Source: Candidatus Yanofskyibacteriota bacterium
Lineage (GTDB): Bacteria > Patescibacteriota > Minisyncoccia > 2-02-FULL-40-12 > GWA2-44-9
Reading direction: 5' to 3'
Assembly (NCBI GenBank): GCA_903830625.1
Contig: CAIKUK010000012.1
Coordinates: forward strand, 1-36,672
DNA: 36,672 nucleotides
The notes beneath the pieces were generated by a model that was not told where the DNA came from, made no database searches, and saw only the letters and a program-made list of their open reading frames with translations. The first letter of the stretch is position 1. Every line of letters begins with the position of its first letter. Both the position numbers and the translations under genes were made by a program. Shown here piece after piece: positions 12,750 through 15,232 of the stretch.

Positions 12750-14497
12750 TGAAAAAACATTCTTTTATCGCCAGTGTTCTAGTGGCGGTTGCCAGTGTTA
12801 TTGCTATCGCCAGTGCCTGGCATGATTCGCCTATCGTCGATGAAATTCCTCACATCGGCGCCGGTTATTCCTATATCATCGGTCGGACTTATGAATTTAA
12901 TCCCGAACATCCCCCGCTCGCTAAAGACTTGGCCGGTTTGGCTCTTCTCCCGCTTGATATAAATTCCAGTATCATTCCAAAGATTGGCAGCGCTAATCCG
13001 CCTAATGGCGTCAATGATCAGTGGAATTTTGGACGATTATTGATTTATCATTCCGGCGATGACCCGATTGCCATTGTTCACGCCGCCAAACTGCCCCTTA
13101 TTCTTCTCTTTATTTTTTCTGCTATCCTGGTTTTTGCGTGGACTAAAAGAACCTACAACTCCCGCGCCGCGCTATTGGCCGTTTTCTTGTTTTCTTTTTG
13201 TCCAACCATTATTGCCCATAGCCGATTTGTTACAACCGATATCGCCGCTCTCTTCGGGGTTTTGTTCTCAACTTATTTCTTCGTCCGTTATCTCCAAGAA
13301 CAGAACACCGCTAATTTTTGGTTAGCGGCATTATCATTCGGTGTGGCTTTGCTTACCAAATTTTCGACATTTCTTTTGGTGCCATTCTTCGTGCTTACTG
13401 CAATCGCCTGGGCTTGGACTCATCATAACCAGTGGTTTAAACCGATGTGGCGGTTAGTCGTTAAAAGCATTCTGGTTATGGCCGTCGGTTTTGTGGTTGT
13501 AGTCGGTCCGGTTTATCAATTTCATATTTTAAATTATCCGGCCTCTCAACAAAAATCCGATTCTATACAAATCCTAGGTAGTTACGGAGTTCCGATAATA
13601 AAATCGGCTATTATCTGGAGCGCCGATAAACCGGTTCTTCGGCCGTTCTCTCAATTTGGTCTTGGACTAGCCATGGTCACTCAGAGGGCAGAGGGCGGAA
13701 ACCGCACTTATTATCTCGGGCAAGTTTCAAGCCAGTCGTTCAAATCATATTTTCCGATTGTCTATTCACTCAAGGAACCGATTCCGTTCTTGATTCTCCT
13801 TCTTGGCGCTATCTGGTTCGGTTTCAAATCTTGGCGAAAAGAACGTAAACCATTTAAAGAAAAGGTTAAGGAGCATTTCCTCGGGTTTACGATGCTTCTT
13901 TGGATAATTATTTATATGGTCGCCAGTATCAATGCCAATCTCAATATCGGCATCCGCCATCTCATCCCGATTTATGGATTCATCTTCATCTTAGTGGCCG
14001 GTCAAATCGAAGCGGTAATAAATAGAGAAAATATCAAAAAATGGTTCAAGATTTTTGTCTTTATTCTTCTTGGTTGGTATGTTGCCGAATTCGCATCTGT
14101 CTATCCGTACTATCTGACTTACTTTAACGAATTCGCGGGCGGGCCGGCGGGTGGTCATCGCTTTGTCGCTGATTCCAATCTTGATTGGGGCCAGGACCTT
14201 TGGCGCTTGGGAGATTTTGTAAAGCAAAATAATATTCAAAAGATATATACCGATTATTTCGGCTGGGCTGATGCCTCTTTCTATCTTGGTGATTCCTTTG
14301 TTTGGATGCGCGGCGGACAATACACCAGTGCTGATGCTTTTCTAAGAGAAAATCCTAATGGCGGCTGGTTGGCTATTTCCGCGACATTCTATCAGGAAGC
14401 GTCCGTTGACCCAAATCATCCCTATTTATGGCTTGAAAAATACACGCCAGTGAAAGTCATTGGGAACTCGATTTTTGTCTGGCACGTCACTCCGTAA
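12749..14497 (+). CDS. Second GT39 (PMT-type) membrane glycosyltransferase
   Basis: With the start at ATG 12749 (TAATG overlap) the protein has 582 residues and begins MKKHSF before the first helix; the ORF track start at 12734 lies inside the upstream gene and is less likely. It has the luminal motif SPIVDEIPHIGAGYSYI with the catalytic DE pair, EHPPLAKDLAGL, many helices, and a C-terminal SNLDWGQDLWRLGDFVK domain typical of bacterial PMT-like proteins. It probably glycosylates surface proteins or lipids together with its neighbour. Its stop codon lies in one arm of an inverted repeat (14494-14602). Confidence 0.82.
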   Translation: MKKHSFIASVLVAVASVIAIASAWHDSPIVDEIPHIGAGYSYIIGRTYEFNPEHPPLAKDLAGLALLPLDINSSIIPKIGSANPPNGVNDQWNFGRLLIYHSGDDPIAIVHAAKLPLILLFIFSAILVFAWTKRTYNSRAALLAVFLFSFCPTIIAHSRFVTTDIAALFGVLFSTYFFVRYLQEQNTANFWLAALSFGVALLTKFSTFLLVPFFVLTAIAWAWTHHNQWFKPMWRLVVKSILVMAVGFVVVVGPVYQFHILNYPASQQKSDSIQILGSYGVPIIKSAIIWSADKPVLRPFSQFGLGLAMVTQRAEGGNRTYYLGQVSSQSFKSYFPIVYSLKEPIPFLILLLGAIWFGFKSWRKERKPFKEKVKEHFLGFTMLLWIIIYMVASINANLNIGIRHLIPIYGFIFILVAGQIEAVINRENIKKWFKIFVFILLGWYVAEFASVYPYYLTYFNEFAGGPAGGHRFVADSNLDWGQDLWRLGDFVKQNNIQKIYTDYFGWADASFYLGDSFVWMRGGQYTSADAFLRENPNGGWLAISATFYQEASVDPNHPYLWLEKYTPVKVIGNSIFVWHVTP

Positions 14498-14602
14498 ATC
14501 GAATTGGGCTTACGTCCCTCTCGGACCGATAATAAACCTGCTCCTGCGGCAGGTTTTTATCTACATGCTCGCGAACCGGACCGTAAGCCCAATTCGATTT
14601 AC
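14494..14602. repeat. Intergenic inverted-repeat element E1
   Basis: Two perfect 21-base arms (14494-14514 and 14582-14602; core AAATCGAATTGGGCTTAC) enclose a 67-base centre that holds a terminator hairpin. The left arm contains the stop codon of the GT39 gene. It resembles the other junction elements in size (109 bp) and plan. Confidence 0.8.
14535..14558 (+). terminator. Terminator of the glycosyltransferase operon
   Basis: AACCTGC pairs with GCAGGTT around a seven-base loop and runs into TTTTT on the plus strand. It sits at the centre of element E1. Confidence 0.75.
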
Positions 14603-14627: not shown

Positions 14628-14660
14628 TAAAAAAACGCCCCGCCGCAGAACGGTCGGGGC
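14628..14660 (-). terminator. Minus-strand terminator at the left end of the GC-rich island
   Basis: GCCCCG pairs with CGGGGC, with an inner CCG/CGG, followed by GTTTTTTTATT on the minus strand. It would end transcripts coming from the 14.7-15.2 kb region. Confidence 0.8.
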
Positions 14661-14940
14661 ATTGTTAGCCCATGGGCCACCTCCTTGAAAGAACGTTGGG
14701 CGATGCGGTGCACCGCATCGCCCTCGAAGCACTCGAAGCTTTCGAAGCTTTCGAAGCCGAAGCGAGAAGAAGGGGGTCCGGACGGCACCAGCGGAGTCAT
14801 TACTTCCGCGACGCCGTCCGGTCGCCGGCCAGGCCAGCACGCTTTCGGCGGATGTTGGGCTTGACGTGGTCCTACAAGCCCCACGTACCCTCACCACGAG
14901 CGCGCGGCTCGGTCAGCTTCTTGTCGCGACATATGCGACA
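14661..14940. other. GC-rich, hairpin-dense stretch without a convincing gene
   Basis: The stretch is clearly richer in GC than its neighbours. It holds a 26-base perfect palindrome (14698-14723, core GATGCGGTGCACCGCATC), four 9-bp units of the form TTCGAAGCT (14723-14758), a two-part hairpin closed by CCGGACGGC (14778-14821), and two overlapping, mutually exclusive stems near 14857-14886. On the minus strand a strong AAGGAGGTG site precedes ATG GGC TAA and then the terminator at 14628. Several overlapping frames are open but run straight through the terminator and palindrome, so I do not call them genes. It may be the 3' part of the RNA unit that starts at 15197. Confidence 0.5.
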
Positions 14941-15197
14941 TTTAAGAGCCCGACTAAACGGGCTCGCAAAAACCAATACTTACTCGCCCGGCCGTAGTTA
15001 TACGGAGGAGGGCTTACGCTCGTTAGCTATGACGAACTTACTATGAATTTCTATGGGCCTATCACTAAAAATGTGTTGTTGCCCGAAAAATAGCGTACTT
15101 ACTGGTTTTTGCGAGCCCATTTCGACAGAGATTCCAGGCCGGCTAAAGCACGGCCTAAAACCTTATCCGATAGGGCTCTTGTAAAGAACAAGTGTGT
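14941..15197 (-). ncRNA. Candidate structured non-coding RNA
   Basis: A consensus sigma-70 promoter (15204-15232) predicts a start near 15197. The RNA can close through nested long-range stems: AAGAGCCC near its 5' end (plus 15173-15180) with GGGCTCTT at its 3' end (plus 14944-14951), and inside that a perfect 16-bp stem (GGGCTCGCAAAAACCA, plus 15103-15118 with 14960-14975). Small hairpins fill the interior, for example AGGCCG/CGGCCT and CCGTA/TACGG. The 3' arm can instead fold locally as GAGCCC/GGGCTC. I find no tmRNA, RNase P, SRP or 6S signature. The 3' end is uncertain; it could continue to the terminator at 14628. Confidence 0.55.
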
Positions 15198-15203
15198 ACT
15201 ACC

Positions 15204-15232
15204 ATTATAGCAGGTAGGGACTTTTATGTCAA
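15204..15232 (-). promoter_or_regulatory. Consensus sigma-70 promoter of the candidate RNA
   Basis: Perfect TTGACA and perfect TATAAT are separated by exactly 17 bases on the minus strand. This is the strongest promoter in the window, and no convincing protein gene follows it. Confidence 0.9.

Follow-up and report, generated by a model that had tools for sequence, protein, structure and literature searches.

A conserved, promoter-driven structured RNA, probably a non-coding RNA gene family of the class Paceibacteria

The DNA analysed here (the window) is a stretch of 36,672 nucleotides from a contig of Candidatus Yanofskyibacteriota bacterium. A promoter scan found its sole 12/12 match to TTGACA-N17-TATAAT at 15232-15204 on the minus strand, a sigma-70 promoter that also carries an extended -10 TG (TGC), with transcription predicted to start at about 15197 on the same strand. 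The features of the RNA described below lie on this strand. Based on the sequence, the first-pass annotation had proposed that the roughly 250 nt 3' of this promoter hold no good protein frame, and the open reading frames of the window indeed include no convincing one there; a reading frame is further disfavoured because the cores of homologs vary in length from 138 to 235 nt. Alignments place a conserved 5' element, TGTTCTTTAC (family consensus AGTTCTTTACATA), at 15181-15190, which is boxA-like by its letters only. In the window and in the four related genomes with the same RNA (G001, G002, G003, and G009), a gene that we take to be ftsQ-like follows serS upstream on the same strand, the name resting on position and appearance as Pfam gives the protein no name, while PMT-type glycosyltransferase genes converge from the opposite strand, an arrangement also found at most loci of the family that were read. 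Just after the PMT-type gene, the window carries a perfect 21-bp inverted repeat (GTAAATCGAATTGGGCTTACG; 14494-14514 and 14582-14602) with a further hairpin inside.

Folding of positions 14941-15197 gave a minimum free energy of -107.7 kcal/mol, compared with -67.5 +/- 4.7 kcal/mol for 200 shuffles (z = -8.59). The perfect 16-bp nested stem noticed initially, GGGCTCGCAAAAACCA with TGGTTTTTGCGAGCCC, was recovered with arms at 15103-15118 and 14960-14975 and 127 nt between them, and a 28-nt inverted repeat was detected at this long stem. Covariation defines it as P1, a 22-bp stem with a 5' arm at 15100-15121 (including AAAAACCAGTA) and a 3' arm at 14957-14978 (TATTGGTTTTTGCGAGCCCGTT), and likewise defines P2 at 15048-15088 (TTTC-G-GGC ... 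GCC-4 nt-GAAA), with a conserved 1x4-nt asymmetric loop and a GGCAACAACAC apical region. Two further hairpins are variable: GTTCGT...ACGAGC (15018-15037; folding and alignment) is present in the genus and elsewhere absent or differently placed, and GCCC...CCGTA/TACGG...GGGC (14986-15013; alignment) occurs in the window genome and G002 only. The ends of the RNA, AAGAGCCC (15173-15180) and GGGCTCTT (14944-14951), are able to pair over 8 bp as first described, although this closing is weak or absent beyond the genus, leaving P1 and P2 as the conserved structure. By folding, and by the recurrence of GAGCCC-loop-GGGCTC in relatives, AAGAGCCC is alternatively the 5' arm of a local hairpin that competes with P1, and folding and alignment show GGGCTCTT, in the genus only, to be complementary both to 15173-15180 and to the end of the P1 3' arm. 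The three AGTAAGT copies reported in the RNA are there (four in the window, 2.2 expected) but are not kept in homologs, and the repeats therefore carry no weight.

Within the loop of the 5' hairpin, about 50 nt (about 15122-15172) correspond to a dispersed, REP-like hairpin element (AAGGTTTTAGGCCGTGCTTTAGCCGGCCTGGAATCTC). We regard this piece as inserted because it is missing from the sister genomes and its hairpin recurs elsewhere in the genome (G000, contigs C10, C11, C14, C21, C23, and C24) and in the family (G005, G020, G021, G023, and others). As the sister genomes lack it, the inserted hairpin does not belong to the native fold of the RNA.

When relatives were searched at the DNA level, the RNA turned up in four genomes (G001, G002, G003, and G009), three of them from the genus and one from a further genus of the family. 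The sister-genome alignment showed conservation of the promoter, the 5' element GTTCTTT, the long stem in both its arms, and the inner motif. A covariance model built from five sequences (R1) was positive in 19 of the 28 genomes of the family (Ca. Yanofskybacteria), most of these loci again having the promoter and the conserved 5' element. A second model (R2) extended the RNA to other families of the class, with 23 of 384 sampled genomes matched, and a third (R3, 18 sequences) matched 33 of the 384, in several families. Stricter Infernal filters were used for these class-wide searches, which partly accounts for the patchy detection (33/384), and a genome without a match may still carry the RNA. 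Genome G024, for instance, scored 36 bits only, yet has the gene context of the family. Just upstream of the RNA, a promoter matching at least 10 of 12 positions was found at 25 of 32 homologous loci, compared with 1.5% of windows drawn at random from these loci, and the best upstream match across the 32 had a median of 11/12.

The RNA is single copy per genome as a rule. A second, diverged copy with its own promoter was observed in G003 (L075, C9:59832-60017) and resembles versions from the order's other families. Outside the Yanofskybacteria family gene contexts differ, the neighbours being presumably comM and an M23 peptidase gene at L117, L118, and L120, and presumably nth and murD at L112, all named from the look of their sequences. 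For the RNA, the analysis turned up neither a partner protein or ligand nor a neighbour that is conserved. The DNA pattern AAAARCCAGTA...TTCRGGCAACA had 15 matches over GTDB genomes, of which three were known Ca. Yanofskybacteria loci; the others, in unrelated organisms, were judged from their flanks to be chance. Phage records contained no match to the RNA.

Comparative folding, proposed as a check in the first-pass annotation, revealed a shared fold in which the 22-bp P1 and the inner stem P2 with its 1x4-nt asymmetric loop are conserved with compensatory changes. In alignment A7, made with MAFFT from sequence only, with variable stretches trimmed by hand beforehand and the structure named after the family had been viewed, covariation was 0.471, compared with 0.194 +/- 0.017 in shuffled alignments (a value reached in 0 of 500) and no more than 0.122 for slid partners. 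Compensatory changes occurred at 17 of its 29 pairs (10.4 in shuffles), and 96.0% of cells were paired (81.7% in shuffles). The picture was the same in A5 (eight sequences). P2 was misaligned in A4, a MAFFT alignment that combined both subtypes, and A5, A6, and A7 were used instead, while the covariance model-fitted A8 was left out as evidence because it leaned towards the structure and mixed strands. Most members also keep two G-U pairs of P1 in AAAGCCAGTA/TATTGGTTTT, and the P2 loop is kept as about one nucleotide opposite four or five. The apical loop occurs in two subtypes, GGCAACACAC or ATTCAAGTAAGATATA.

Hairpin-plus-T sites were read by eye soon after P1 at L064, L068, L069, L117, L118, and L120, and because such a terminator-like hairpin closely follows P1 in several distant members, the core RNA is estimated at about 130-200 nt. 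Many members of the Yanofskybacteria family have their next such site several hundred nucleotides further downstream. For the window copy, the terminator scan placed an intrinsic-terminator-like site at 14636-14652 (minus strand), giving a predicted transcript of about 550 nt, and in this family the transcript probably extends 3' over 14653-14943, a structured and fast-changing stretch whose extent is taken from that next site. Sequence downstream of the core diverges in the alignment of sister-genome homologs. The interval 14653-14943 itself folds strongly, with a CCGGACGG...CCGTCCGG hairpin and GGTGAGG common to three sister genomes only (the window's, G001, and G002).

No Rfam 15 family matched the RNA in the window or at 17 homologous loci; the sole match in the window was a tRNA, and matches at a loose threshold were chance-level only. 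This agrees with the earlier failure to recognize tmRNA, RNase P RNA, signal recognition particle (SRP) RNA, or 6S RNA by their core motifs, as no model of a known housekeeping RNA matched. The genome's tmRNA (RF00023; 114.8 bits) and RNase P RNA (RF00010; 108.4 bits) are encoded on other contigs, C23 and C24, respectively, and neither model matched at the locus, which likewise showed no tmRNA-type combination of tRNA-like domain and tag frame. The initial reading that a consensus promoter drives an unassigned structured RNA is thus strongly supported by the conserved promoter, compensatory changes, terminator-like sites, occurrence in many genomes, and lack of an Rfam family.

Resemblance to bacterial SRP RNA extends to a rod-like hairpin whose internal loop is asymmetric and to a possible 5' hairpin that may yield to the long stem during transcription. 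In E. coli 4.5S RNA, a 5' hairpin gives way to the long stem while the RNA is transcribed. However, neither SRP RNA model (RF00169 and RF01854) matched in the window or at the 17 homologous loci, and the genomes searched are without detected SRP RNA or Ffh: neither type of SRP RNA was found in the window's genome, a search of 75 genomes also failed to detect the small type, and the SRP_SPB (M) domain of Ffh (PF02978) was found in 0 of 39 genomes around G000 (controls 14/14 positive). An SRP role, suggested by the missing SRP RNA, was rejected because Ffh is also absent. These absences agree with the loss of ffh and ffs already reported for Parcubacteria (PMC4508563).

Among other long or orphan RNAs, OLE, ROOL, and GOLLD are likewise long structured non-coding RNAs with their own transcripts, and the RNA described here may reach a predicted 550 nt overall in the Yanofskybacteria family, but it has no Rfam match and its conserved core is a simple two-stem rod. 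Like Weinberg-type orphan motifs, it has a fold conserved by covariation and no assigned function, although it matches no Rfam 15 family, the comparison covering the motifs listed in Rfam. Our best reading is that the family is new in the sense that it is not in Rfam 15 and that no description was found in the literature searched, which covered few subscription papers.

The boxA-like appearance of AGTTCTTTACATA was followed to the rRNA genes, where G[CT]TCTTT was absent from the 420 nt before 16S and from the 3' flank at seven loci, some of them incomplete or interrupted, and the boxA idea was rejected. As separate observations, a hairpin, AACCACGATTG...CAATCGTGGTT (with variants), is common to the 16S leaders at L126-L128 and L130, which also have in common a pairing of leader with trailer around 16S (TTGTCAATTT...AAATTGATAA). 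The 16S rRNA match at L129 (G000 C8:6966-9170) runs for about 2.2 kb, and its flank reads as a LAGLIDADG-type protein (GFVDGEGCFSV), which suggests an intron in the 16S gene.

Comparison among loci shows the predicted promoter, P1, P2, and terminator-like sites to recur in several families, independently of the neighbouring genes, and judged from sequence this is very probably a real conserved non-coding RNA gene. The best explanation as a whole, which we hold to be reasonably probable, is a free-standing gene for a structured non-coding RNA, driven by a putatively strong, constitutive sigma-70 promoter, belonging to a family of the class Paceibacteria (Parcubacteria group), and having a role in a stable ribonucleoprotein. 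In many members, the 5' part would fold first into a local hairpin during transcription; once the 3' arm has been made, the 22-bp P1 would form and the 5' hairpin give way. P1 would then hold P2, whose asymmetric and apical loops would present the conserved sequence, and the RNA may act in trans as the RNA part of the particle, with a putative protein site made up of these two loops and the part of P1 that contains the G-U pairs (AAAGCCAGTA/TATTGGTTTT). We give about even odds to a housekeeping-type RNA that is bound by protein, as opposed to one that regulates by base pairing.

Base pairing is the main rival of the ribonucleoprotein reading. A trans-acting regulatory RNA, in which either the 5' element (AGTTCTTTACATA) or the apical loop, in its GGCAACACAC or ATTCAAGTAAGATATA form, would pair with target mRNAs, would agree with the short, highly conserved segments predicted to be unpaired, the strong promoter of its own with terminator-like sites, and the usual single copy. 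The loop sequence, however, differs between two subtypes of one family around a constant asymmetric loop, and a 22-bp stem partly kept in primary sequence exceeds what a seed needs, which makes such a regulator rather unlikely.

We consider it improbable that the RNA regulates RNA polymerase in a 6S-like manner, in place of a missing 6S RNA. The window's own genome has no detected 6S RNA (RF00013, E<=0.001), and the RNA resembles 6S RNA in being a single gene with its own sigma-70 promoter, a long closing stem with which a 5' hairpin competes, and a core of similar size (about 150-200 nt). Nevertheless, RF00013 matched neither the window nor the homologs, and the large open central bubble that defines 6S RNA is missing, with the asymmetric loop of P2 in its place: P1 of L103 runs almost directly into P2, and in other members the interval is variable, often with a side hairpin. 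The RNA was, moreover, found only in Paceibacteria, the sole class searched.

The first-pass annotation had also seen an attenuator-like choice in the alternative GAGCCC/GGGCTC pairings. While local hairpins and the long-range stem are both possible in the window and the genus, a cis-acting attenuator or riboswitch is very improbable because nothing is encoded downstream on the RNA's strand, where the PMT-type gene converges from the opposite one. In addition, no T-run follows the switchable hairpin, terminator-like sites suggest that the transcript ends before any coding sequence, and contexts vary between families. The 3' GAGCCC/GGGCTC hairpin is limited to the closest relatives, and the 5' half (GAGCCC-loop-GGGCTC) is found across much of the Yanofskybacteria family and not in all other families, and is therefore at most a folding intermediate there. 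Least credible of all is a mobile inverted-repeat element (MITE) or DNA-level palindrome instead of an RNA, since, for all the length of the inverted repeat and the insertion of a REP-like element, the locus is present once per genome as a rule, is syntenic after the ftsQ-like gene in several genomes, and has a near-fixed promoter distance, compensatory changes, and conserved G-U pairs.

Returning to the stable ribonucleoprotein, its furthest extension is a lineage-wide housekeeping RNA of Paceibacteria with a global job, such as at RNA polymerase, at ribosomes, or in membrane targeting, and a fold unlike those of known housekeeping RNAs, a proposal that we regard as speculative and doubtful. 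If true, it would serve bacteria without SRP and, in the one genome tested, without detected 6S RNA. Because Parcubacteria genomes are very small and lack SRP, an additional conserved non-coding RNA that has a strong promoter is probably not dispensable. Its covariance model and the genomes identified make the RNA a defined target, for transcript data and for partner proteins, in a large part of the bacterial tree that is uncultured.
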